A DNA stretch of 18,417 bases. Source: Desulfobacula sp. GTDB taxonomy: Bacteria > Desulfobacterota > Desulfobacteria > Desulfobacterales > Desulfobacteraceae. Under the pieces are notes generated by a model. It was not told the origin of the DNA. It was given only the letters and a program-made list of their open reading frames with translations, and ran no database searches. The translations under genes and the position numbers were made by a program. The DNA lies in assembly GCF_021107415.1 (NCBI RefSeq), contig NZ_JAIOSW010000305.1:1-18417 (forward strand), read 5' to 3'. Below, piece by piece: positions 3,601 through 15,745 of the stretch (position 1 is the stretch's first letter; each line of letters starts with the position of its first letter).

Positions 3601-3635
3601 GTATTTTTTAAAATATAAATTAAAGGTCTTTTTAT

Positions 3636-4123
3636 ATGGCTGTATTTAATAATGTTTCCAAATTTGGATTAATTTACATGGATGCCAGACGATATCCTTA
3701 TCTATGCGGCCGCTACCATTGGTGCTGTTGTCACCCTGGCCAAAACAGGGTTTCTCACCCTTTAAGACCGGATGTCAACACGGTTGATGTCACTGAATTT
3801 TACGATTCAAAAAAGGATAATGGAAAGGCGTTTGGAAGGAGTATGGTCATCTCGGGGAGTCCCATGCAGACCGGTCTCCCTGCGGTACAGGAACTGCATC
3901 AAAACTGGCGCTTCTGCACCATTACAAGAAAATCAAAATGCATCAGCCATATATCAACTACAGCCCGTTGGGAACCACCTTTTGTGCACAACTGGTCAAT
4001 AAAGAAAAAATCGGCTCCTATGACGGATTTGTCACACAGATTAAAGGTATGGCTTATATAACTGGGGTACATCAATTTTTAATTGAAAATCATGACCCTT
4101 TCCAGAAAGGATATATTGTATAA
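3636..4123 (+). pseudogene. proline racemase family pseudogene, multiply frameshifted and internally deleted
   Basis: The family (proline racemase, hydroxyproline 2-epimerase, trans-3-hydroxyproline dehydratase) uses two active-site cysteines and is about 330 residues long. Its pieces are readable here in three frames. One frame gives FGLIYMDARRYPYLCG (about 3663-3710). After a 2-base loss in the CGH motif, a second frame gives ATIGAVVTLAKTGFL (3712-3756), ending at TAA 3763. The first frame resumes with PDVNTVDVTEFYDS from 3768. After loss of about one base in the G run 3854-3857, a third frame gives ESHADRSPCGTGT (3857-3895) and then KMHQPYINYSPLGTTF and AYITGVHQF, to TAA at 4121. The two cysteine motifs are about 59 codons apart instead of roughly 165, so about 100 codons are missing inside, and the N-terminal 70-80 residues are absent too. 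This is a relic, not a sequencing slip. Confidence 0.88.
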
Positions 4124-5295
4124 TGAACGCATTTGCAGATATAGTTTTAAACTTGGACGAATTAATTCAGTTCAGAAAGGATTTGCACCAGAATCCCGAA
4201 CTTTCTCGAAATGAAATAAATACACAAAAAAAAATATATGATTTTATTTCCAGATTTGATCCTGACGAAATAATTACCAATATTGGCGGATATGGCCTGG
4301 CTGCAATATATAATGGAAATGCTCCGGGACCAACTTTGGCCTTTCGGGCAGATATTGATGCATTACCCATTCAAGAAAAAAATCATTTCCCTCATGCTTC
4401 AAAAATTAAAAATGTGAGTCACAAATGCGGTCATGATGGTCATACGACAATGGTTGCAGGTTTGGGAAAAATTTTACAGGACAAAAAACCTGAAAAAGGA
4501 AGAGTCGTTTTGATATTCCAGCCTGCCGAAGAAACCCTGGACGGCGCTAAAAAATTTGTTGAAGATCCGAAATTTAAAAAAATAAAACCGGATTATTTAT
4601 TTGGTATACATAATTTTCAGTCTGAGGAGGAAAATCAAATACTGCTTCGATCCGGTCAAATGAGCCCTGCAGTGACCACAATGCTTGTTGATCTGGAAGG
4701 AACCGCTGCTCATGCATCTCGGCCTGAAAGCGGTGTCTGCCCATATAATGCAGCAATAAAAATAGTTGCTGGGGCATATGAATTACAGAACAATAAAGAT
4801 ATTTATTCTGATGATTTTTCAATGGTAACCATTGTAAATTTTATATTGGGTAAAAACCCCGGATATGGCACCGCACCTGCTGACGCGCATATTGCAATGA
4901 CCTTAAGAGCTTATAAAGATGACGTATTAAGCGGATTAACCGGTCAGATTGAAAACTATATTATTAAGACTTCAAAACTGGAAAACTTATTAAACTGGAA
5001 AATTTCCTATACTGATGAGACTATTTCCTGCACCAATGATGAACAATGCTGTCAAATTGTTGAAAAAGCTGCAAAAGAGAATAATTTAGATGTTCAATAT
5101 ATGGATGTCCCCATGAGAGGGGGCGAAGATGTGGGCTACATTATTAATACCTGCAGCAAAGGAGGTGCATTTTTTTTATTGGGCTCAGGCCGGGATCAGC
5201 CTGATCTGCACGCACCTGATTTTGATTTTCCCGACAGATTAATTGAATCCGGTATAAAAATATACAACTCCATTATAACTCAGATATTAAATTAA
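4123..5295 (+). CDS. M20 family metal-dependent amidohydrolase / N-acyl-amino-acid deacylase
   Basis: A 390-residue protein of the M20D type (hippurate hydrolase, N-acyl-L-amino-acid amidohydrolase, aminobenzoyl-glutamate hydrolase group), of normal length and without a signal peptide, hence cytoplasmic. Metal-site residues are visible: C102 and H104 in KCGHDGHT, E136-E137 in PAEE, H163 in GIHN and H363 in DLHAPDFDFPD. RADIDALPI (75-83) and the dimerisation-domain histidine H197 (AAHASRPE) are also typical. The cysteine ligand marks this subgroup, which removes acyl groups from N-acyl amino acids. Its ATG overlaps the stop codon of the wrecked proline racemase gene (TAATG), so the two were once translationally coupled; AAAGGA lies 11 bases before the ATG. 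It looks more A/T-rich than the dpp genes downstream. In context it is a candidate deacetylase for N-acetyl-L-glutamate made by the convergent dgcA/dgcN-like pair, but that substrate is inference. Confidence 0.88.
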   Translation: MNAFADIVLNLDELIQFRKDLHQNPELSRNEINTQKKIYDFISRFDPDEIITNIGGYGLAAIYNGNAPGPTLAFRADIDALPIQEKNHFPHASKIKNVSHKCGHDGHTTMVAGLGKILQDKKPEKGRVVLIFQPAEETLDGAKKFVEDPKFKKIKPDYLFGIHNFQSEEENQILLRSGQMSPAVTTMLVDLEGTAAHASRPESGVCPYNAAIKIVAGAYELQNNKDIYSDDFSMVTIVNFILGKNPGYGTAPADAHIAMTLRAYKDDVLSGLTGQIENYIIKTSKLENLLNWKISYTDETISCTNDEQCCQIVEKAAKENNLDVQYMDVPMRGGEDVGYIINTCSKGGAFFLLGSGRDQPDLHAPDFDFPDRLIESGIKIYNSIITQILN

Positions 5296-5307
5296 TATTC
5301 ATACAAA

Positions 5308-5336
5308 TTGACAAGCTCTTTCTTTATTGATAATAA
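5308..5336 (+). promoter_or_regulatory. candidate sigma70-type promoter of the peptide-transport operon
   Basis: A perfect TTGACA (5308-5313) and TAATAA (5331-5336) are 17 bases apart, immediately after the M20 stop codon. Transcription would start near 5343, giving a leader of about 140 bases before the binding-protein gene. The leader has a short GCCG-A-CGGC inverted repeat at 5428-5436 but no riboswitch I recognise. No convincing terminator separates the M20 gene from this operon, so read-through is possible. Confidence 0.55.
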
Positions 5337-5484
5337 TTTACAATATAACCATGGGGAACGCTATGAATCCATGTCATTGACTGTTATTTAAGTTTCCCTC
5401 CTTATCCGGGGAGCATATCTAAAATTCGGCCGACGGCTGTTGATTCCGTTCTCTTCCAGCTAAATATAATAAAGGAGTAATAGA

Positions 5485-7086
5485 ATGAAAAAATTAATGT
5501 TTTTTACGGCATTATTAGCACTTGTGGCAAGTGCCTGGGTATCTCCGGTGTTTGCAGCAAGAAGCGGTGGAACTCTCAATTTTATGGCACCTTATGGAGG
5601 AGATCTCTCCAGCCTTAACCCCTACACGACCAGTAGATATCAGGATTACCTGGTCTCAATGAATATCCATCGCAGCCTGTACCGGTGGGATGCCCAAAAA
5701 AGCATTCCCGTGCTTGACCTGGCAGAAAGTGTAGATATATCCGATGACGGCCTGACCTATACATACAAGCTGCGTCCCAACATCAAGTTTCATAACGGCC
5801 GCAAATTGACATCCGATGACATCATCTGGAGCTATACACATATTGCTTCCATGAAACCTGCTTCACCTTCCTTTATACATATCATGCCAATTCAAGGAGC
5901 CAAAGACTTGAATAATGGCAAGGCCGATACCATTAGCGGGCTAAAAAAAATAGATGCCCTGACATTTCAGATGACTATTGAAAATCCAGTAGATATGAAG
6001 TTTTACCTGTGGTTTCCTACCGTAGCTATTCTGCCAAAGGAAGAAGTGGAAGGCAATGAGGATAATTTCAGAATCAATCCCGTTGGCTGCGGACCGTTTA
6101 AATTTGTTAAATGGGTTAAAGGATCTGAAGTCATAATTGAAAAATTCGATGATTTTTATATGAAAGGCCTGCCGTATCTTGATAAGGTAAACTACAAAAT
6201 CATGGGTGAAGCAGCTCCCCGTGACCTTGCCTTCAAAGCAAAAGATCTGGATGCCACCATTGTCGGTGCTGTCAACTATCCTGAATACCTTGCAGATCCT
6301 GTGATTTCCAAAAATATGATCGAAGTTGCCGAGATGTTTACCCGTCTGGTAGGTATGAACCCTGCATTTAAACCATTTGCCGACAAACGGGTTCGTCAGG
6401 CCATCAACCATGCCATTCCGGCCGACCTGATCATCGAAAAAATTCTCAAAGGCAAAGCTTTCCCTGCCAGGGGATTTCTGCCTTCAACATCACCGGCCTT
6501 TGATCCCAATGGGAAAAAATATGAGTATAATCTTGACAAAGCCAAACAACTCATGAAAGAAGCCGGATATGAAAAAGGTTTTGCCATTGAGCATGCAATC
6601 GGTACTGCTAATAAATCCTGGGGTACAGGTATTTATGAGGCAATGATGCCTTTTTTGAAAAAAATTAACATAAGCATAAAAATTGAGCAGATGGAAGGTG
6701 CTACCATGGATCAGCGGATTCGTGACGGTAAATACCAGATGTTTATCTGGTCACTTGACTCCGGGCCAGACCCTCTGGTAGTCCTCCATAGGTGGCATTC
6801 AACTACCCCTGTAGGCAGTGGCAATTATGTCAAATATAACAACCCGGAATTTGACAAATTTTTAGATCAGGCAGCCAAAGAGCGTGACGAAGCAAAAAAA
6901 ATAGAACTGATCAAAAAAGCTGACGCTGTTTTTACTAAGGATGCCCCAGTCTGGTTCTTCAATTACAACAAGGCTGTCATGGCATTTCATCCCTGGGTGC
7001 ACAACCTGTCCAAGGTAGCCCCGGAAATGATGTTCCAGGATCTCACCAGTGTGTGGGTGGATGAAACCTCTCCAAGAGCCAAATAA
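5485..7086 (+). CDS. dppA: peptide ABC transporter substrate-binding protein (SBP family 5)
   Basis: A 533-residue exported solute-binding protein of the DppA/OppA type. Residues 1-24 form a Sec signal peptide: two lysines, a hydrophobic core and a small-residue cleavage site near VFA-AR. There is no lipobox cysteine, so a free periplasmic protein is expected, in line with a Gram-negative cell. The mature part starts with the GGTLNFMAPYGGDLSSLNP stretch that opens this family, and GPFKFVKWVKGSEVIIE (about 203-219) is its usual mid-domain segment. AGGAG lies a few bases before the ATG. It heads the operon with two permeases and two ATPases, so it sets import specificity. The ligand is not readable; peptides with D-amino acids are inferred from the M55 D-aminopeptidase in the same operon. 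Note that B. subtilis uses the name dppA for the M55 peptidase. Confidence 0.93.
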   Translation: MKKLMFFTALLALVASAWVSPVFAARSGGTLNFMAPYGGDLSSLNPYTTSRYQDYLVSMNIHRSLYRWDAQKSIPVLDLAESVDISDDGLTYTYKLRPNIKFHNGRKLTSDDIIWSYTHIASMKPASPSFIHIMPIQGAKDLNNGKADTISGLKKIDALTFQMTIENPVDMKFYLWFPTVAILPKEEVEGNEDNFRINPVGCGPFKFVKWVKGSEVIIEKFDDFYMKGLPYLDKVNYKIMGEAAPRDLAFKAKDLDATIVGAVNYPEYLADPVISKNMIEVAEMFTRLVGMNPAFKPFADKRVRQAINHAIPADLIIEKILKGKAFPARGFLPSTSPAFDPNGKKYEYNLDKAKQLMKEAGYEKGFAIEHAIGTANKSWGTGIYEAMMPFLKKINISIKIEQMEGATMDQRIRDGKYQMFIWSLDSGPDPLVVLHRWHSTTPVGSGNYVKYNNPEFDKFLDQAAKERDEAKKIELIKKADAVFTKDAPVWFFNYNKAVMAFHPWVHNLSKVAPEMMFQDLTSVWVDETSPRAK

Positions 7087-7099
7087 AAAAATGCATACC

Positions 7100-7136
7100 A
7101 TGACCGGGGAAGCCATTGGGCTTTCCCGGTCATTTT
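7100..7136 (+). terminator. intercistronic hairpin with T run between binding protein and permease genes
   Basis: TGACCGGGGAAGCC (7101-7114) pairs with GGCTTTCCCGGTCA (7119-7132), a 14-bp stem with one G-T wobble and a 4-base loop, followed by TTTT (7133-7136). It is built like an intrinsic terminator but lies inside an operon. The usual role of such a hairpin is to protect or partly terminate the transcript so that far more binding protein than permease is made. Confidence 0.78.
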
Positions 7137-7173
7137 GATCGAACTTAGTGTCTATAAGGTACTAAAAGGATAA

Positions 7174-8121
7174 ATGATGTTTGCTTATGCCCTTCGCAGG
7201 CTGCTTCAATTCATTCCCACCATTTTAGTCATTACCCTGATTATGTTCATGCTGCTGAATGTACTGCCCGGCAATGCTGCACTCATGGCTGCCGGAGACC
7301 AGGACAGCGGTATGATCACCGAGCAGTATATAGAACAGATGAAGAAAGAATGGGGGTTAGACAAGCCATTGTGGCAACGGTATGCCATTTATCTGAAAGG
7401 GCTTGCCATTGGTGACCTGGGACGTTCATTCCTCAGGCGCGAACCCGTAACCCAGCTGCTCAAGGAAAGACTGTGGCCCACACTGAAACTGGCCGTTGCA
7501 GCCATGCTGGTTGCCGTATGTTTTGGAATTCCTCTTGGTTTCTATTCAGCCCTTCGCCAGGGCCGGGTGCCTGATACCATCACAATGATGGGAGCGGTAT
7601 CAGGCGTGTCCATACCACAATTCTGGTTAGGGTTGCTTTTAATGTATTTTGTTTCTGTCAAACTGCATTTATTACCCCCCTTAGGATATGGAGACGGCTC
7701 CATAAAAAATATTATCCTGCCCGCATTTACACTTGGGATAGGTTATGTCGGACTTTTAGCGCGAACCACACGTGCAGCGGTTGTGGAAATCCTTACCACT
7801 GATTACATTCGCACCGCCAGGGCCAAAGGTCTGTCTGAATTTCTGGTAAACAGAAAACATGTCATGAGAAATGCATTGATTCTGATACTGACGACAGCCA
7901 GTCTTCAGTTCGGAGAGTTAATAGCCAATACGGTTATAGTGGAAAAGCTTTTTTCATGGCCGGGACTGGGCTCTCTTCTGGTGGACTCCATTTTTCAACG
8001 AGACATCCCCATAACCCAAGGCTGTATCCTGGTAATTATCCTTGTTTTTTTAATGGTCAACTTAATCGTCGACCTGCTCTATGGAGTGATCGATCCAAGA
8101 ATCAGGACATCGTTTAAATGA
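7174..8121 (+). CDS. dppB: peptide ABC transporter permease (DppB type)
   Basis: A 315-residue inner-membrane permease of the BPD_transp_1 family and of DppB length. It begins with the typical FAYALRRLLQFIPTI segment forming the first membrane helix (about 9-30); further hydrophobic helices lie near 104-125, 140-163, 183-197, 235-258 and 283-305. The EAA loop that docks onto an ATPase is DYIRTARAKGLS (210-221). SWPGLGSLLVDSI (261-273) and the C-terminal DLLYGVIDPRIR are standard. Two ATGs are adjacent (7174 and 7177); AAAGGA ends at 7170, so the second has the better spacing and the protein may be one residue shorter. The stop overlaps the start of the next permease gene (ATGA), indicating coupled translation. 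It forms the channel with DppC. Confidence 0.95.
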   Translation: MMFAYALRRLLQFIPTILVITLIMFMLLNVLPGNAALMAAGDQDSGMITEQYIEQMKKEWGLDKPLWQRYAIYLKGLAIGDLGRSFLRREPVTQLLKERLWPTLKLAVAAMLVAVCFGIPLGFYSALRQGRVPDTITMMGAVSGVSIPQFWLGLLLMYFVSVKLHLLPPLGYGDGSIKNIILPAFTLGIGYVGLLARTTRAAVVEILTTDYIRTARAKGLSEFLVNRKHVMRNALILILTTASLQFGELIANTVIVEKLFSWPGLGSLLVDSIFQRDIPITQGCILVIILVFLMVNLIVDLLYGVIDPRIRTSFK

Positions 8122-8960
8122 ATAAAAATTTATATAAAATTTTACACCAGACCAATCTTATGGTCGGGGGCATCATCACCTTATTTGTAATCACAGCCGC
8201 TATTTTTGCACCGGTACTGGCACCATACCACCCCATAGATGATGCAGATTTAATGGTTTCGGAAGAGCCGCCCGGAAAACCATACTGGTTCGGTACGGAT
8301 ATTCAGGGCCGCGACATCCTGTCACGGGTCATATACGGTGCCAGGATTTCACTGGCAGTAGGTTTGATAAGCCAGGTTTTCAATACGATTATCGGGGTCT
8401 CTTTAGGCCTGAGCGCGGGTTTTTTCGGCGGATGGTGGGATGATCTGGTTATGGGACTGACCAATATCATGCTCTCTATTCCATCATTGATTTTTGCACT
8501 GGCAGTAATGGCCCTGTTAGGCCCTGGGCTTATAAACGTCTTTATTGCCCTGGGATTCACCAATTGGTCATATTCCTGCCCCATCACCCGGTCCCAGGCC
8601 CTGGCGGCAAAAAACCTGGATTATGTCAAGGCTGCCCGGGCGCTTGGCTATGGCCGCATACGGCTTATGTTCACCCAGATTCTGCCGAATATCATAGGCC
8701 CAATTCTGATCATTGCCACATTGGGAGTTGCCGGAGCAATTCTTCTGGAAGCAGCCCTCTCGTTTCTTGGCCTTGGCGTGCAGCCGCCTACTCCCTCATG
8801 GGGAGCCATGTTGTCTGCTGCCCGGGAGCAATTATTTACAGCGCCATGGATTTCCGTTTTTCCGGGGCTTGCCATCTTTATAACAGTACTGGGGCTCAAC
8901 CTGCTGGGTGATGGCCTGCGGGATATATTAGATCCTCACACTCTGACCCAACGCAATTAA
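8118..8960 (+). CDS. dppC: peptide ABC transporter permease (DppC type)
   Basis: The second channel subunit, 280 residues, BPD_transp_1 family with the OppC/DppC N-terminal segment. Residues 16-34 are the first membrane helix, followed by the conserved periplasmic stretch FGTDIQGRDILSRVIYGAR (58-76). The EAA loop is DYVKAARALGYGR (168-180), followed by ILPNIIGPI (188-196). PPTPSWGAML (223-232) near the C-terminal end is a hallmark of the DppC family. The start codon overlaps the dppB stop by four bases (ATGA), so both subunits should be made together. It ends 19 bases before the amidohydrolase gene. Confidence 0.95.
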   Translation: MNKNLYKILHQTNLMVGGIITLFVITAAIFAPVLAPYHPIDDADLMVSEEPPGKPYWFGTDIQGRDILSRVIYGARISLAVGLISQVFNTIIGVSLGLSAGFFGGWWDDLVMGLTNIMLSIPSLIFALAVMALLGPGLINVFIALGFTNWSYSCPITRSQALAAKNLDYVKAARALGYGRIRLMFTQILPNIIGPILIIATLGVAGAILLEAALSFLGLGVQPPTPSWGAMLSAAREQLFTAPWISVFPGLAIFITVLGLNLLGDGLRDILDPHTLTQRN

Positions 8961-8979
8961 TAATGAATAAGGAGCATTA

Positions 8980-10566
8980 ATGTCTTCACAAGAATTTGCC
9001 ATATATTCTTCAAACATTTTCACCGGGATTCCGAGGCAGCTTTGGGCTGAAGCTGTTGGAATTAAGAACGGCTGTATTGCTGTGGTGGGAACCAACCAGG
9101 AAGTAAAATCCGCTCTTCCCAATGCAAAAGCTGTTGAATTGCCGGGACGTCTGGTCTCTCCTGGGCTTGTGGATGCTCACTGCCATTTTGTCAGCTATGC
9201 CCGCGCCCAACTGATGATTGATCTTACAGGCCTGCCCAGTATAGAAGGCTGCCGCAACATAATCAAAGAAGCTGTCTCAAAAGCAAAGCCGGGCCAATGG
9301 CTCATAGGACGAGGATGGAACCATCATCTATGGAAAGAAAACCGGGTGCCTGCCAAAGAAGACCTTGATGATATAAGTCCTGATAACCCGCTTCTGATGA
9401 TAAGGGTCTGCGGCCACAGTGAATGGCTTAATTCAAAGGCCCTGCAACTTGCCGGCATCACACCTGAATCACCAGACCCACCGGGCGCCCGCTTCGATCG
9501 GGATGCCGGCGGAGAGCTTACAGGCCTTTTGCATGAAGCCAGGGACCTCATCATGGAAATAATTCCTCCCGTTGGGGATGACGAACTTAAAACCACTGTC
9601 CATGCCGCCCAGTCAGAGCTTCTAAGTCTGGGTCTGACCGGAGTGCATACATGCGAGTCTCTGGAGGAATGGAAGCTTTTGCGTGAAATGGACCAGAATA
9701 ACCAATTAAAACTCAGAGTCCATCATTTGATCCAGAGTTATGACCTGAACGAGGCTGATGGACTTAACCTCAGCTGGGGAAAAGGAAATCAACAGCTCTG
9801 GATCGGGCATCTCAAGCTTTTTGCAGACGGATCACTGGGGTCAACAACCGCACTGATGCATGAATCCTATGAGGGTGATCCGGATAATTACGGTATCCAC
9901 TGCCTTGATGCAGATGAACTGAAACATTATGTCCTTGAAGCATACAAGCGGGGACTCAGCGTAGCTATCCATGCCATCGGGGATAAGGCCGGCACAAATG
10001 CTTTGGATGCCATTGCCAATGGCCGCAAACAATATCCCGGCCTTTGGAGAGACCGCATCGAGCATGTTCAGCTTTATAAGTCTGAAGACCTTGCCAGGTA
10101 TCGGGATATGGGTATTGTGGCTTCAGTGCAGCCGATTTTTGTTCCGTCTGACTGGCATGTGGCAGACAAACTCTGGGGCAATAAACGATGCTCCACCAGG
10201 GCATATGCATGGAAAACATTAATGGAAAACGACATACAGTTACAATTTGGTTCCGATGCCCCGATAGAGCAAATAAGACCGATCCTCGGGTTGCAGGCGG
10301 CTGTTCTCCGCCAGACATCTGATCTTAAGCCGGAAGGAGGATGGCAGCCGCAGCAGAGACTTACTTTGGAGGAGAGCCTGGCAGGCTTTACCAGGACCGC
10401 AGCCTGGACTTCACAGAAAGAAGATTACTCAGGCTCGCTTCTGCCGGGAAACTGGGCTGATCTAACCGTCTTTGAAAAGGATCTAACTGTTACACCTGCC
10501 CGGGAATGGCATAATGTAGATGTGGAAATGACAATTATAAATGGTGAAATAGTTTATCGTAAATAA
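8980..10566 (+). CDS. Amidohydro_3 / YtcJ-type metal-dependent amidohydrolase
   Basis: A 528-residue cytoplasmic enzyme of the amidohydrolase superfamily, Amidohydro_3 group (YtcJ, N-substituted formamide deformylase and relatives), normal length. Metal and catalytic signatures of the TIM barrel are in order: DAHCHF with H67 and H69, LKLFADGSLGS with K279 as the likely bridging lysine, HAIGDKA with H331, RIEHVQ with H362, and GSDAPIE with D426. The small beta-sandwich domain is made from both ends (1-60 and about 485-528, with NWADLTVFEKD). There is no signal peptide. AAGGAG sits six bases before the ATG. The gene lies between the permease and ATPase genes of the importer, so its substrate probably enters through that importer or is released from it: an N-acylated or cyclised amino acid or peptide is plausible. 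The family is too diverse for a specific reaction to be named. Confidence 0.88.
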   Translation: MSSQEFAIYSSNIFTGIPRQLWAEAVGIKNGCIAVVGTNQEVKSALPNAKAVELPGRLVSPGLVDAHCHFVSYARAQLMIDLTGLPSIEGCRNIIKEAVSKAKPGQWLIGRGWNHHLWKENRVPAKEDLDDISPDNPLLMIRVCGHSEWLNSKALQLAGITPESPDPPGARFDRDAGGELTGLLHEARDLIMEIIPPVGDDELKTTVHAAQSELLSLGLTGVHTCESLEEWKLLREMDQNNQLKLRVHHLIQSYDLNEADGLNLSWGKGNQQLWIGHLKLFADGSLGSTTALMHESYEGDPDNYGIHCLDADELKHYVLEAYKRGLSVAIHAIGDKAGTNALDAIANGRKQYPGLWRDRIEHVQLYKSEDLARYRDMGIVASVQPIFVPSDWHVADKLWGNKRCSTRAYAWKTLMENDIQLQFGSDAPIEQIRPILGLQAAVLRQTSDLKPEGGWQPQQRLTLEESLAGFTRTAAWTSQKEDYSGSLLPGNWADLTVFEKDLTVTPAREWHNVDVEMTIINGEIVYRK

Positions 10567-10598
10567 ATACCGGATACCAGACATAAAGGGAGCTATTG

Positions 10599-11582
10599 GT
10601 GAGTAACAACGAACATATATTGAACGTTCGAGACCTGAAAACCTATTTTTATACTTTGGAAGGTGTTGCCAAAGCCGTGGACGATGTATCATTCCATGCA
10701 AACCCGGGAGAAACACTTGGCATTGTAGGAGAATCCGGCAGTGGCAAAAGCGTTTCTGTTCTGTCAATCATGCGCCTGATCAAGAATCCGCCGGGCAAAA
10801 TTGTCAGCGGACGGATTGAATTTGACGGTACCAATCTGCTGGAGCTGCCGGAAAACAAAATGCGCAAAATCCGGGGAAACCGGATTTCCATGATTTTCCA
10901 GGAGCCCATGACATCCCTGAATCCTGTATTTACCATAGGAAACCAGATTGCAGAAATGTTTGTCGTCCACCAGGGACTGAATAAAAAGGACAGCCTTGAC
11001 CGGGCAATAGATATGCTCGACAGGGTAAAAATTCCTTCTCCCCGCAATCGAGCACAGGAATTTCCCCACCAGCTTTCCGGCGGCATGCGTCAGCGTGCCA
11101 TGATTGCCATGGCTTTGGCCTGCAACCCTGAAATTCTGATTGCTGACGAGCCTACAACGGCTCTGGACGTCACCATCCAGGCACAAATACTCGAGCTGAT
11201 GCTGGAACTAAAGGAACAATATAATACGGCTGTACTGATGATTACCCATGATCTGGGCGTGATTGCTGAAATTGCACAACGGGTGGTTGTCATGTATGCA
11301 GGCAAGGTGGTTGAGGAAGGACCGACAAAAGATCTGTTCGAAAATCCTAAACATCCTTATACCAAGGGATTGTTGCAATCAATACCCATACTGGGACGGC
11401 GGGCCAAATACGGGAGGGACCGCTTGACTGAAATCCCAGGCATAGTTCCAAGTTTATATGAATTACCCAAAGGATGCAGCTTTCAACCCCGCTGCCAGGA
11501 ATGCATTCCTGAGTGCAGGGTAACCCTGCCTGATTTAAGGCCCCTGGAACTGGAGCGTAAAGTACGATGTCATTTGTATTAA
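10599..11582 (+). CDS. dppD: peptide ABC transporter ATP-binding protein (DppD type)
   Basis: An ATPase of 327 residues when started at GTG 10599. That codon has AAAGGGAG ending six bases before it; the TTG directly upstream (10596) is too close to this site. Walker A is GESGSGKS (44-51), the Q-loop Q101, the signature LSGGMRQ (159-165), Walker B ILIADE (179-184) and the switch histidine H217. The C-terminal oligopeptide-transporter extension holds C293, C299, C302, C306 and C324; cysteines in this region have been reported to bind a [4Fe-4S] cluster in some Opp/Dpp ATPases. It should pair with DppF on the cytoplasmic face of DppBC. It follows the amidohydrolase gene by 32 bases, in the same operon. 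Confidence 0.93.
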   Translation: MSNNEHILNVRDLKTYFYTLEGVAKAVDDVSFHANPGETLGIVGESGSGKSVSVLSIMRLIKNPPGKIVSGRIEFDGTNLLELPENKMRKIRGNRISMIFQEPMTSLNPVFTIGNQIAEMFVVHQGLNKKDSLDRAIDMLDRVKIPSPRNRAQEFPHQLSGGMRQRAMIAMALACNPEILIADEPTTALDVTIQAQILELMLELKEQYNTAVLMITHDLGVIAEIAQRVVVMYAGKVVEEGPTKDLFENPKHPYTKGLLQSIPILGRRAKYGRDRLTEIPGIVPSLYELPKGCSFQPRCQECIPECRVTLPDLRPLELERKVRCHLY

Positions 11583-11660
11583 TAAAAATCGAAGCTTATG
11601 GACCGGGAACACTGGTGTTTTCTGTTCTGTCTTCCAAAAACAGTCAAGGAATCTGATCAA

Positions 11661-12623
11661 TTGGAAACACTTCTTAGCGTAAAAGATCTAAAGGTTCATT
11701 TTCCGGTTAAAAAAGGATTTTTTGGTAATACCACCGGATATGTGCATGCTGTGGACGGAATCTCGCTGTCATTGGAGAAAGGTGAAACATTAGGGATTGT
11801 GGGTGAGAGCGGCTGCGGCAAAACTACTGCCGGGATGGCTATGTTAAGGCTTGAAGAGCCCACTGAAGGCCAGGTCTTTTTTCAAGACAAAGATATTGCC
11901 AAAATGACACATAAAGAGAGGAAATCCCTGCGTTGTGAAATGCAGATTATTTTTCAGGACCCCTATTCTTCACTGAACCCCCGCATGCCGCTTAATCGAA
12001 TTATAGCGGATCCCATGAAAATTCATAATCTCTACACAGGCAAGGCTTTAAAGGAACGGGTTGCTTACCTCCTGGAAACAGTGGGACTGTCACCTGAACA
12101 GGGTAATCGTTATCCCCATGAATTTTCTGGAGGACAGCGCCAGCGGATTGGTATTGCAAGGGCCCTGGCCCTCAACCCAAAGCTGATCATAGGTGACGAA
12201 CCTGTATCAGCCTTAGATGTTTCAATCCAGGCACAGATCATCAACCTTCTCATAGATCTTCAGAAGGAATTCCAGCTTTCCTATATTATCATTTCCCATG
12301 ACCTCGCCGTGGTTGAGTACATCTGCGACAGGATCGCAGTTATGTACGTAGGTAAAATAGTTGAATTTACAACCTATGACAAATTGTACAGCGATCCCAA
12401 ACATCCCTATACCCAGGCATTACTTTCAGCGATCCCCAAACCCGAGCCAGGAGCAAGAAAACAGCGTATCGTATTGGGGGGAGATGTCCCCAGTCCCATC
12501 AATCCCCCTTCGGGCTGTCGTTTTCACCCCCGTTGCCCAAAGGTAATGGATATCTGTCGGCAAAGACAACCGGAATTATCCGATGTAGAATCCGGTCATC
12601 AAGTTGCTTGCCATCTATATTAA
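11661..12623 (+). CDS. dppF: peptide ABC transporter ATP-binding protein (DppF type)
   Basis: The second importer ATPase: Walker [10 protein letters not shown] (48-56), Q-loop Q99, signature FSGGQRQR (155-162, with F in place of the usual L), Walker B LIIGDE (175-180) and switch histidine H213, followed by the C-terminal extension with C286, C292, C299 and C317. The start is uncertain. An ATG at 11598 is in frame but has no good ribosome binding site and adds 21 residues (from [10 protein letters not shown] onward) unlike the family. The TTG at 11661 is preceded by AAGGA with a 10-base gap and gives [19 protein letters not shown], the usual DppF beginning, so I chose it. This leaves 78 untranslated bases after dppD. 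The product is 320 residues, normal for DppF. Confidence 0.9.
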
Positions 12624-12639
12624 AAAAAGGCAATTAATC

Positions 12640-13443
12640 ATGAAAATTTATATCAGTGCTGATATTGAAGGCATAACCGGAACAACAGACTGGAGTGAAG
12701 TAACAAAAAGCTGTGATGATTACGCCCAATTCCAGGAACAGATGACAAAGGAGGTGTGTGCAGCCTGTGAAGGAGCTGTTGAAGCAGGTGCCACCAGTAT
12801 ACTCGTTAAAGATGCCCATTCAACTGCCTGCAATATCATTGCATCAAAACTGCCTGAAAAGGTAAAGCTTGTCAGGGGCTGGAGCAGACATCCCTATATG
12901 ATGATGCAGGAGATAAACAAAAGCTTTGATGCAGCTTTCATGATTGGATATCACTGTGCAGCAGGAGCAGGAGGGAATCCCCTTGCACACACCATGAGCA
13001 GCACTCTTATTGCAGATATTGAGATAAACGGACATCCACTTGTATCTGAATTTTTCTTAAATACATATACTGCTGCCCTTGAACAGGTTCCTGTTGTTTT
13101 TTTATCAGGTGACAGGGAGATTTGCAGGGAAGCCAAAAAACTTTTATCTGAAATCATCACAGTTCCGGTAAAAGAAGGATCAGGCGGTTCCACCATCAAT
13201 ATTCATCCTGATGAGGCAATACAAAAAATAAGAGCTGCAAGCAAAAGAGCCCTTGAAAAACCACTTGTTCCTTTTAAATTTGAACTACCTGAATATTTTA
13301 CTGTTAAAATTACTTATTTAAATATTAAAGATGCCTATAAAGCATCATTCTACCCCGGATCAAAACTTATTTCTCCAAAAATTGTATTGTTTGAAACTCA
13401 AAATTATTTTGATGTTCTAAGAATGCTTGTTTTTGTTTTGTAA
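12640..13443 (+). CDS. M55 family zinc D-aminopeptidase
   Basis: A 267-residue member of peptidase family M55, whose type member is the D-aminopeptidase DppA of B. subtilis (274 residues); that enzyme removes N-terminal D-amino acids, preferring D-Ala. All expected zinc ligands are present: D8 and E10 in SADIEGITG, H60 in KDAHST, H105 in GYHCAAG and E137 in the segment after ADIEINGHPL. The catalytic histidine H117 is in the conserved AHTMSS. The start at ATG 12640 is chosen because AAAAAAGG lies nine bases upstream and the protein then begins MKIYISADIEG as in the family; an in-frame ATG at 12604 would overlap the end of dppF and add 12 odd residues. There is no signal peptide, so it acts in the cytoplasm on imported peptides. 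It is the last gene of the importer operon, and a terminator begins at its stop codon. Confidence 0.92.
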   Translation: MKIYISADIEGITGTTDWSEVTKSCDDYAQFQEQMTKEVCAACEGAVEAGATSILVKDAHSTACNIIASKLPEKVKLVRGWSRHPYMMMQEINKSFDAAFMIGYHCAAGAGGNPLAHTMSSTLIADIEINGHPLVSEFFLNTYTAALEQVPVVFLSGDREICREAKKLLSEIITVPVKEGSGGSTINIHPDEAIQKIRAASKRALEKPLVPFKFELPEYFTVKITYLNIKDAYKASFYPGSKLISPKIVLFETQNYFDVLRMLVFVL

Positions 13444-13461
13444 CTGCCACGGGCAGTTTTT
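13442..13461 (+). terminator. intrinsic terminator of the peptide-transport operon
   Basis: AACTGCC (13442-13448) pairs perfectly with GGCAGTT (13452-13458) around a 3-base loop and runs into five consecutive T residues (13457-13461). The stem overlaps the stop codon of the M55 gene. On the minus strand no T run follows, so it does not obviously terminate the convergent operon; I see no clear terminator for that one. Confidence 0.85.
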
Positions 13462-13502
13462 GAAGATTTTATCGAATATATTATTTTTTTATTAATGTGC
13501 TC

Positions 13503-14681
13503 CTAATCCCTGGCAATACCTGGTTCCAGACGTTTGGCACTATGTACTTTATCATGATTTTTGATGAACTGACGAATGACAGGCAAAAGATTGGAAAGGC
13601 CATCCTCCAGCGGCAGGATCACAGGGATATTCAGCCTTGCTTCAAGGGTTTGCCTGTATTGTTCCAGATCTTGTTTTGAGCCCCCGGTCCCATTGAGGGT
13701 AACAGCCAATACTTTTGTCTTGTACATTTCAATCAGCCTTATCTCATCTGCTACATCCGGCAGCAGGCAACCGATGTCTTCAGTTGCAGCATAAAATTTT
13801 CTGAATGGGGTATGTTGAAGGATGACTCCCTTTACATTGCCGGAAACAATAATCTCCGATCCACAGGGGCCCAAGGGATTTCTCAATGAAGACTGCCCTT
13901 CGATCAGGATAATATCCGGAGACGATTCCTGCTCACATTCAATAATCGCTGTCTCTATCTCCCCGCTGACAAAATCATTTATTGTGGTGTCCAGGATAAA
14001 CCCGTGGAGATTCCCCTGAAGCCATCCTGTCTGACCGGTATATATCATTTCAGCATGAATCTTGTTTGCCAGACATGTCTCAATGATCATCCGGGATGTT
14101 GTGCGCTTGCCAAGGGCGCAATCCATACCCAATATTGCCAGCCTGGGAACTTTCATTTGAAAAATCCGACCGGACCAGAAGTGAAGCTGGTCAAAGGGTT
14201 TGTGGCGGCGGATGTCTATAATTTCAGCATTATGGGTCTTGGCGACTTCCCTGAAAACAGGGTGATCTCCAAGCAGCATGTGCATCCCATTGACAATGGA
14301 AATACCAAGTTTCAGGATATCCAGTGCCAGCGCCTGCCATTGCTCATTGAGTCTGCCGCCGCTCAAGGCAACACCGATAATCGCGTAATCCGGCTTGGTG
14401 CCTGCTGCCTTTATGTATGCATCAACAGTTGCATAAACCGGGATGTTCCTATACATTCCATCAAGGACTTCACCGGCATCCCGGCCTGCACTGTTATAGT
14501 CGATAACACCTTTGATATCAAATCGTTCAGTACCACGAATCAAGCCATGGGCTGTTTTTGCATCTGCATGTTCCAAACTTCCATTGGTAAGGATAAAGGC
14601 TGATCCCATCATGATATTCTTTTTTCTATGTTCCAAAATATTTTCAACCTTATCGACATCTTCAATTTTTTTATAATTCAT
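13503..14681 (-). CDS. dgcN: DUF1611 protein, DgcN-type D-glutamate N-acetyltransferase candidate
   Basis: A 392-residue DUF1611 family protein. The N-terminal half is a Rossmann-like domain (ALSGGRLNEQW near 105-115, then VNGMHMLLGDHP at 130-141). The C-terminal half is a P-loop domain with GMDCALGKRTT (185-195), then TGQTGW (215-220) and IEGQSSLRNP (260-269). Members have been described as DgcN, which acetylates D-glutamate with acetyl-CoA, working with the neighbouring racemase DgcA. The start overlaps the stop of the epimerase gene (TAATG), so translation is probably coupled. A second start is possible at M24 or M25 (14612/14609), which would give the shorter N-terminus more usual in the family, but neither has a clear ribosome binding site. 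There is no signal peptide. The DUF1611 assignment is firm; the D-Glu acetyltransferase activity follows from family and neighbour and is not proven here. Confidence 0.85.
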   Translation of the reverse strand: MNYKKIEDVDKVENILEHRKKNIMMGSAFILTNGSLEHADAKTAHGLIRGTERFDIKGVIDYNSAGRDAGEVLDGMYRNIPVYATVDAYIKAAGTKPDYAIIGVALSGGRLNEQWQALALDILKLGISIVNGMHMLLGDHPVFREVAKTHNAEIIDIRRHKPFDQLHFWSGRIFQMKVPRLAILGMDCALGKRTTSRMIIETCLANKIHAEMIYTGQTGWLQGNLHGFILDTTINDFVSGEIETAIIECEQESSPDIILIEGQSSLRNPLGPCGSEIIVSGNVKGVILQHTPFRKFYAATEDIGCLLPDVADEIRLIEMYKTKVLAVTLNGTGGSKQDLEQYRQTLEARLNIPVILPLEDGLSNLLPVIRQFIKNHDKVHSAKRLEPGIARD

Positions 14682-15745
14682 TAGATTCTTTTCACTCCCA
14701 ATCCAGGTTGTTCAGTGGTGATAAGCCACCCATTATCAAGAATAAAACCGCCTGTTACCAGGTCCTTTGCCAAATCCAGGCTCCCGTCCAGATCCAGAAA
14801 TCTAGTGGCCCTTGATGCAAAAGCTGCGTGCAGCGCACCTGCAATGGAAACAATGCTTTCATCCATGCATCCCCACATGAGATCAATACCTGCGTGGCAG
14901 GCCATATCGGCAATTTCCAGGCCAGGCCCGATCCCGCCGCATTTCATCAGCTTAATATTGAAAATACCAAAAGGATAGGGCTCAAACAGACAATTTAAAG
15001 CGGTTTTTGGAGAAAGAAGGCTTTCATCCGCGGCCGAGAGCCTGCGCATATGTTCAGGCAGGGATCGCATCCCGTCAAGATCCAATGCAGTAAGAGGCTG
15101 TTCCACAAACTCAAGCGCATCTTTTGTGGCATCAAAAAACCGCTTATATTCTGATAGAGTATAACCCTGGTTTGCATCTACCCGGATACGCATGGCAGTT
15201 TTGAATATTTCTTTAAGCCGCATAACGCGTTCAATATCTTCTTCTACATCAAGCCCGGTTTTAATTTTTAAAATGGTAAACCCCTGTTCCTGATACTCCC
15301 GGGCCTCCATCAGCATCTCTTCTATAGATTTGATCCCTATGGTTATGGAAGTCTGCAGCCGGTCATGAACCCGGCCCAGAATATCAACCAGGGGTACGCC
15401 AATCGTAGTAGCCAAAAGATCATGCAGGGCGATATCAGCCGCCGCAAGAGCCGCAGGAGTATCAGTCATGGCTTCATTCAATTTTTGGAGTAATGCCCTG
15501 TGGTACATAACATCCTGACCCTTAAGAACAGGTTCCAATTGCTCATTCAAAGCTTTTTCACAGGTCATAATGCTCTCACCGGTTACACCTTCTGCCGGTG
15601 AACCTGCACCAATCCCAACATTGCCATTATCATCTTCCAGAAGAACAAACAGATTTTCAACCGAGTCAATCCGCTCATATGCAATGGTGTAAGGACGCGT
15701 CAATGCCAGGTTCTCTTTCCAAATAGTAATTTTTTTTATTTTCAT
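14681..15745 (-). CDS. dgcA: enolase-superfamily dipeptide epimerase / DgcA-type N-acetyl-D-Glu racemase candidate
   Basis: A 354-residue enolase-superfamily enzyme of the muconate-lactonising/dipeptide-epimerase group. The two acid-base lysines are K162 (in LKIKTG, 159-164) and K268 (in KLMKCGG, 265-271). The magnesium ligands are D190 (RVDAN), E215 (FVEQP) and D240 (SAADES). A D-x-D pair, D318 and D320 in FLDLDG, is the motif that in L-Ala-D/L-Glu epimerases holds the free amino group of the dipeptide. Two functions fit: epimerisation of L-Ala-D-Glu from murein peptides, or racemisation of N-acetyl-D-Glu as DgcA, which is supported by the coupled DUF1611 gene downstream. A purine stretch AGGGG lies nine bases before the ATG. 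It is the first gene of the minus-strand pair that converges on the importer operon. Confidence 0.88.
   Translation of the reverse strand: MKIKKITIWKENLALTRPYTIAYERIDSVENLFVLLEDDNGNVGIGAGSPAEGVTGESIMTCEKALNEQLEPVLKGQDVMYHRALLQKLNEAMTDTPAALAAADIALHDLLATTIGVPLVDILGRVHDRLQTSITIGIKSIEEMLMEAREYQEQGFTILKIKTGLDVEEDIERVMRLKEIFKTAMRIRVDANQGYTLSEYKRFFDATKDALEFVEQPLTALDLDGMRSLPEHMRRLSAADESLLSPKTALNCLFEPYPFGIFNIKLMKCGGIGPGLEIADMACHAGIDLMWGCMDESIVSIAGALHAAFASRATRFLDLDGSLDLAKDLVTGGFILDNGWLITTEQPGLGVKRI

Follow-up and report, generated by a model that had tools for sequence, protein, structure and literature searches.

To our knowledge, little is known about the recovery of D-amino acids by anaerobes, and the acetyltransferase DgcN is the only DUF1611 homologue with a named activity that we know of; the enzymology of DgcN and its partner DgcA is reportedly the subject of an ISME J paper from 2023. 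The D-amino acids of cell walls make up a considerable pool in the sea and its sediments, which is broken down only slowly, and a DUF1611 protein and an enolase-superfamily epimerase act in sequence in the DgcN/DgcA pathway (PMC10845958). The same two families lie side by side in the locus described here. It is part of an 18,417-nucleotide stretch of a Desulfobacula sp. genome (contig NZ_JAIOSW010000305.1; the whole stretch is referred to as the window) and comprises, besides the DUF1611/epimerase pair, a dipeptide importer (Dpp) and an M55 D-aminopeptidase. Altogether, the locus can probably import peptides with D-residues and invert D-amino acids to the L form. A scan of an 84,980-genome collection with the epimerase yielded 56 loci, on which the following comparisons are based.

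The epimerase of the window is 51% identical over the whole chain to the dipeptide epimerase of Methylococcus capsulatus (3rit, crystallised with L-Arg-D-Lys; also 3ro6), and the two share the catalytic lysines, the Mg ligands, the motifs CMDES and DLDGS and a DUF1611 neighbour. In the epimerase tree, it groups with this enzyme and outside a clade of 30 DgcA and E. coli YcjG (support of 1.0), while T. maritima 2zad was the next outgroup among the few references used. The DgcA set comprised the best 30 loci from 106 matching genomes out of 349. Compared to the NCBIfam cut-off of 400 bits for DgcA (NF042940), the determined score was only 140 bits. The positions Lys160, Lys162 and Lys268 as well as Asp191, Glu219 and Asp244 (numbering of 1jpm), which we take to be the catalytic residues and the Mg ligands, are conserved in the window and in 54/54 aligned epimerases, and are shared with DgcA. 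Residues were counted in 54 of the 56 loci (L052 and L056 were too short), 49 of which have an adjoining DUF1611 gene; the structure alignment comprised the window and 38 of the 56 loci. In contrast to these common positions, the pocket signatures of DgcA are replaced: the strand-7 signature CM(V/L)(G/A/S), present in 30/30 DgcA, reads CMDE in the window, and the 20s-loop signature ISRG reads IAYE, the former being taken from those DgcA rows that are aligned in this loop, as many are gapped owing to trimming. The DxD motif, which presumably binds the ammonium group of a dipeptide, is found in the window and in 30/30 DgcA and was therefore dropped as a discriminator between dipeptide and N-acyl substrates. 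At position 24, the window carries Glu, whereas M. capsulatus, with its basic crystal ligand, carries Arg; over the 54 aligned epimerases the position showed 18 Glu, 11 Arg, 9 Lys, 5 Gln, 4 Ala, 2 Asp, 2 Thr, 1 His, 1 Asn and 1 gap. By similarity and clade, the enzyme is thus assigned to the M. capsulatus dipeptide epimerase type, while dipeptide epimerisation itself is a predicted activity.

The DUF1611 protein, judged by its sequence, is related to DgcN and belongs to a separate subfamily. It is 25% identical to DgcN 7xrj, and its score against the DgcN profile (NF041892) was 109 bits compared to a cut-off of 480, with similar values of 119 and 116 bits for the relatives from M. capsulatus (L042) and from a Desulfotignum bin (L008). 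In the DUF1611 tree (midpoint root), 12 DgcN form one clade (0.999), while the window protein falls together with pair-type proteins (those adjoining an epimerase of the window's type), sister-type proteins and T. maritima proteins (0.995); 2g0t of T. maritima was the next outgroup among the few references used. Across 36 pair-type DUF1611 proteins (the window and 35 of 50 partners) and 11 of 21 DgcN in the structure alignment, 22 columns are invariant, including the Gly-Lys of the P-loop, GQTG, DF, EGQ and Arg294. The residue following this Gly-Lys is Arg in 36/36 pair-type proteins and Met or Lys in 11/11 DgcN; among the 120 relatives listed, including the window's own protein, 119 carry Arg here and one carries Thr. 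Since Ser or Thr is missing at this point, an Mg-ATP enzyme is unlikely. A second-look alignment of the DUF1611 model speaks for the families in its list and is silent on others.

The association of the two genes is not restricted to the window. DUF1611 adjoins the epimerase on the same strand in 50 of the 56 loci, with the order epimerase-DUF1611 in 33 and the reverse order in 17. The gap between the matches was at most 200 base pairs (bp) in 48/50, the others being 1,599 bp and 680 bp; in the latter locus (L052) the epimerase is in two pieces, and measured from the second one the gap is about 230 bp. Among the loci with no adjoining DUF1611, L015, L040 and L056 are contig ends or fragments, while in L023, L032 and L054 the gene is locally absent, with a DUF1611 gene elsewhere in the genome of L054. 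According to the record titles, the pair occurs in Desulfobacterota, SAR324, Bacteroidota, Marinimicrobia, Calditrichota, Planctomycetota, Acidobacteriota, Actinomycetota and Gammaproteobacteria including M. capsulatus, where DUF1611 lies six bases upstream of the epimerase gene of the solved type (strain Texas, L042, 8919-11056), in reversed order compared to the window. The tree distances of the partners correlate with r = 0.73 (49 loci and the window, L052 dropped; 0/999 permutations as high), a part of which must reflect shared species history. On the epimerase tree the gene order switches twice, on the DUF1611 tree once. In a sample of 242 genomes from the order to which L008 belongs, seven carry the epimerase (at least 55% identity), six of them with an adjoining DUF1611; eight more carry a sister-type epimerase, in three cases (L127, L165, L166) with DUF1611 within about 2.5 kilobases (kb). 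Altogether, the pair is more than a chance neighbourhood, since it recurs in 50/56 loci and since pair, dpp genes and M55 are found together in two further genomes. Because DgcN/DgcA uses the same two families, this pairing is found with two separate epimerase lineages. In the DgcA loci, DUF1611 was seen in 21/30, always upstream (DgcN then DgcA), and in 9/30 none was found within about 1.5 kb on either side. A first-pass annotation of the window had described the pair as arranged like DgcA/DgcN, which holds true for the adjoining of the two families but not for their order, as the window shows the opposite order to 21/21 of these loci. No paper linking DUF1611 to a dipeptide epimerase was found in the open-licence library searched.

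The further neighbours of the pair vary; their families were determined by Pfam scans of chosen representatives, several of which reached no family. A cluster whose representative (L005) is nearest to the N-acyl-D-glutamate deacylase 3gip occurs in 15/56 loci and directly adjoins the pair in 10, the identity of the cluster being based on this one representative. In two sister-clade loci (L165, 3417-9940; L166, 3550-9168; families scanned in L165), a pyridoxal phosphate (PLP) enzyme, DUF1611, an 800-residue protein with a creatininase C-terminal domain and the epimerase form a compact group. In loci of the Calditrichota type (L053, 12217-15064; also L052 and L033; families scanned in L053), the pair is followed by an S13 D-Ala-D-Ala carboxypeptidase and a decarboxylase of the ornithine/diaminopimelate type. 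In Marinimicrobia (L013, L020, L021, L022, L029, L046), it is accompanied by a Cys/Met PLP enzyme, a D-aminoacylase-like gene and a protein of about 357 residues, for which the cluster representative (L035) reached no Pfam family.

The linkage of the pair to the importer and M55 is conserved in relatives. In the Desulfotignum bin (L008), the genes for M20, a broken Lrp regulator, epimerase, DUF1611, the peptide-binding protein (SBP), DppB, DppC, Amidohydro_3, DppD, DppF and M55 follow each other in one direction, with identities to the window of 87% for DppC, 58% for M55 and 73% for M20. L006 comprises an intact Lrp, epimerase, DUF1611, SBP, DppBC, Amidohydro_3, DppDF, a reversed GntR-type gene and M55, and L007 shows a partial set, SBP-DppBC-Amidohydro_3, about 2 kb from the pair. 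In five loci (L001, L002, L005, L010, L025) another Dpp set with 36-47% identity follows the pair, while in the remaining 48/56 loci no dpp set was matched with the window queries; in the 21 kb of L042, neither dpp nor M55 was matched except for a weak DppF-like match 7 kb away. Four of the seven epimerase genomes contain Amidohydro_3 (20 of 242 genomes overall, P = 0.001) and four contain M55 (12 genomes of 242, or 11 without G002, the genome of L006; P about 1e-4), the relatedness of the genomes being uncorrected in both values. The epimerase/Amidohydro_3 sample and the M55 sample are not identical (242 genomes each, from the orders of G001 and G002, respectively, with G002 in the latter only).

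The dpp-ykf genes of B. subtilis (DppA, dipeptide importer and the L-Ala-D/L-Glu epimerase YkfB) likewise form a block of an importer, an M55 enzyme and an enolase-superfamily epimerase. In contrast to these, the block of the window contains DUF1611, M20 and Amidohydro_3 and an epimerase of another clade, while neither NlpC/P60 (YkfC) nor LD-carboxypeptidase (YkfA) was found among its ten proteins in the Pfam scan; both may lie elsewhere in the genome. The genome of L006 additionally has a classical operon (L125, 600-9523) in the order SBP-DppBCDF-NlpC/P60-epimerase (32%)-M55, in which no DUF1611 was matched. Such an operon corresponds to the dpp-ykf theme (PMC2954226). The first-pass annotation had proposed that a Dpp importer and M55 operon is tied to the DUF1611/epimerase pair, and had named a lack of joint conservation in relatives as a refutation. 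This tie is the best-supported part of its claim, as it is borne out by the Pfam families and by the recurrence in L006 and L008 completely and in L007 partly. As for the suggested novelty of the combination, the linkage of the pair to dpp-M55 is new as far as the searched open-licence library shows, but importer, M55 and epimerase alone are the known dpp-ykf theme.

Gene content, conserved linkage, catalytic residues and separate clades are established at the level of sequence. The explanation that we tentatively put forward, and which we consider only slightly more doubtful than an even chance, is that the block is an island for the uptake and stereo-inversion of D-peptides, in which a capping-and-inversion pair similar to DgcN/DgcA, with another specificity, is combined with a D-peptide importer. 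Import of peptides, cleavage by D-aminopeptidases and the inversion of an alpha carbon by two lysines and Mg are known functions of these families. Dpp would import peptides containing D-residues, which would be trimmed by M55 and the amidohydrolase/M20 enzymes. DUF1611 would then add an acyl cap to the amino group of the D-amino acid, with the degenerate P-loop holding the nucleotide part of the acyl-CoA. The two-lysine, Mg-dependent epimerase would invert the alpha carbon of the capped residue to the L form, and M20 would take the cap off. The pair would thus follow the logic of DgcN/DgcA but form a subtype of its own, whose substrate would differ from D-Glu and may be a basic residue. We infer the acyl transfer from acyl-CoA by DUF1611, the capped residue as substrate of the epimerase, the kind of amino acid and acyl group, and the uncapping by M20. 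The N-succinyl-Arg/Lys racemase 2p88 belongs to the same superfamily, although with 30% identity and outside the window's clade; since its title names N-acyl basic amino acids, the fold accepts a substrate of the proposed type.

Several observations weigh against this explanation. DUF1611 is absent beside the epimerase in L023, L032, L054 and G152 (the seventh epimerase genome in the order of L008), and for 5/8 sister-clade epimerases no DUF1611 was found in the sequence stretch examined. M20 was found at the pair in only one other locus, L008. An N-acyl-D-amino-acid deacylase of the 3gip-like cluster beside the pair would cancel the capping, provided that the two act in the same compartment. 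The case for a basic residue as substrate is thin, and position 24 as a marker of it was weakened by the Arg in M. capsulatus and the wide variation. Finally, the nearest solved relative was crystallised with a dipeptide, and a dipeptide substrate would need no capping. The plain dipeptide-epimerase reading is nearly as likely as the capping model. On this view, the block would be an island for murein peptides like that of B. subtilis dpp-ykf. Imported dipeptides, probably with a basic residue, would be inverted by the epimerase at their C-terminal D-residue and then degraded by dipeptidases, with DUF1611 performing a separate accessory step. We regard this as quite possible, while it leaves unexplained the presence of DUF1611 with the epimerase in 50/56 loci across phyla and the correlated trees, and the NlpC/P60 and LD-carboxypeptidase of the theme are missing from the block. 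Since the genome of L006 already has the classical operon, the DUF1611 operon probably does something else there.

The other explanations are far less probable. In a true DgcN/DgcA pathway, D-Glu would be converted via N-acetyl-D-Glu and N-acetyl-L-Glu to L-Glu. This chain, which the first-pass annotation had proposed, turned out to be its weakest part: although the two families and their core residues agree, the pair was rejected as DgcN/DgcA by the family cut-offs (109/480 and 140/400 bits), by the clustering of DgcA with YcjG away from the window, by the low identity to 7xrj, by the missing DgcA signatures (IAYE and CMDE instead) with Glu at position 24 and by the gene order, so that we consider it very unlikely. 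Slightly less credit is given to DUF1611 as an ATP-using ligase that joins an L- to a D-amino acid, with the partner inverting the dipeptide and a dipeptidase freeing both residues. Such a scheme would suit a dipeptide epimerase, but Ser or Thr after the P-loop Gly-Lys is found in none of the 36 pair-type and 11 DgcN proteins, with the one Thr among the 120 listed relatives, and DgcN itself is an acetyltransferase. Least probable of all, and in our view highly improbable, is that a dpp-M55 operon and an unrelated pair were brought together by chance in this contig. The rearranged layout of the window with broken genes at its flanks and the matching of M55 with the pair in only 2/56 loci would agree with this, while the same genes in one direction in L006 and L008 and the co-occurrence of the epimerase with Amidohydro_3 and M55 in 4/7 genomes each argue against it.

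Beyond the window, DUF1611 and the Methylococcus-type epimerase may form a widespread, unrecognised amino-acid inversion system, in which the "dipeptide epimerases" of this clade would act in the cell on the product of DUF1611, an N-acyl or N-aminoacyl D-amino acid that is possibly basic, and which would be wired to a D-peptide importer and M55 in some Desulfobacterales. We consider this broader proposal quite possible, though more doubtful than not. Nonetheless, a recurring DUF1611 partner of a structurally solved dipeptide epimerase raises a testable question, namely what the real substrate of the clade is and which product DUF1611 forms outside the DgcN group, and the answer for one pair would bear on dozens of genomes in many phyla.

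Features of the window (positions in the 18,417-nucleotide stretch)
Feature	Position	Strand	Basis
Proline racemase remnant, C-terminal end in one frame	about 3821..4123	+	Pfam Pro_racemase, 85 bits, profile 238-324 of 325
M20 amidohydrolase (TIGR01891), likely N-acyl-amino-acid hydrolase or carboxypeptidase	4123..5295	+	Pfam, 118 bits; TIGR01891, 204 bits (cut-off 153.75)
Peptide-binding protein, SBP family 5	5485..7086	+	Pfam SBP_bac_5, 293 bits; 74% identity in L006 and L008
DppB-type permease	7174..8121	+	Pfam; 82-83% identity in L008 and L006
DppC-type permease	8118..8960	+	Pfam; 87% identity in L008 and L006
Amidohydro_3 metal-dependent hydrolase (family assignment only)	8980..10566	+	Pfam, 348 bits
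DppD-type ATPase	10596..11582	+	Pfam; homologues at related loci
DppF-type ATPase	11598..12623	+	Pfam; PRK11308, 430 bits (cut-off 408)
M55 D-aminopeptidase	12640..13443	+	Pfam Peptidase_M55, 289 bits; likely start ATG 12640
DUF1611 protein, DgcN-like fold, separate subfamily; predicted N-acyltransferase of a D-amino acid	13503..14681	-	Profiles, tree, residues
Enolase-superfamily epimerase, M. capsulatus dipeptide epimerase type	14681..15745	-	Identity, tree, residues
Lrp/AsnC regulator remnant, C-terminal 54-57 residues	15814..15984	-	tblastn, 73-83% identity to Lrp of L001, L002, L003 and L006

The block of ten genes is preceded by genes for a thiolase and an aldehyde ferredoxin oxidoreductase (-) and followed by uvrA (-), which is truncated at the window end; these three were assigned by eye from the sequence, the ten block genes by Pfam. 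All ten frames are open, and the genes named by the first-pass annotation lie where it placed them. In addition to the scores in the table, BPD_transp_1 reached 135 and 101 bits, ABC_tran 105 and 108 bits, the N- and C-terminal domains of DUF1611 80 and 169 bits and those of MR_MLE 49 and 129 bits. The DUF1611 and epimerase genes overlap by one base (14681), and M55 and DUF1611 are convergent, 59 bases apart. For M20, the best solved match was yxeP (1ysj), with a further match to the N-alpha-acyl-glutamine aminoacylase 6slf; its role in the deacylation step of the earlier chain is putative. Amidohydro_3 matched two solved structures, 3icj and 3igh, both of uncharacterised proteins, and is present in 20 further genomes of the 242-genome sample, in many of these near DppBC. 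M55 passes the Pfam cut-off of 25 bits (PF04951), and the residues aligning with Asp8, Glu10, His60, His104 and Glu133 of B. subtilis DppA (1hi9), presumably the zinc ligands, are all conserved, in agreement with the earlier description. Against the NCBIfam DppA equivalog it reached 165 bits and missed the cut-off of 430, and it is thus assigned to the same family and not called an orthologue of the B. subtilis enzyme. The named relatives of the DUF1611 and M55 proteins belong to Desulfobacterota, such as Desulfopila sp. (69%) and a Desulfobacula bin (82%), so that a host resembling sulfate reducers is likely. No Rfam family matched in the window at gathering scores, and the scans for terminator-like (14 matches compared to 13.3 in shuffles) and promoter-like sequences (36 compared to 26.4, standard deviation 5.5) were set aside.

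While the ten genes lie within the limits given by the first-pass annotation (4123..15745), the block extends beyond both of them by gene remnants. At the left flank, the stop of the proline racemase remnant overlaps the start of M20. A degraded gene of this family spans about 3634-4123 (+), of which only the C-terminal piece reaches Pfam, while upstream pieces in other frames are alike by eye. The open reading frame 3636-4061 (+) was rejected as a gene; it reached no Pfam family and overlaps pieces of the broken proline racemase gene. At the right flank, the rest of the Lrp gene is gone on the side of uvrA, and the remaining piece, the C-terminal third, reached no Pfam family by itself. In relatives, Lrp precedes the epimerase. 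Because of the Lrp remnant upstream of the window's epimerase and the co-directional order in relatives, the convergent layout of the window probably derives from one co-directional operon, although a chimeric contig may also be its source. In L008 (9859-9999), only the first 47 residues of Lrp are left, with an internal stop, while Lrp of L006 is intact with 160 amino acids. The local Lrp is thus broken in two ways, leaving a C-terminal piece in the window and an N-terminal piece in L008, and is whole in L006, which points to a repeated loss of the regulator.

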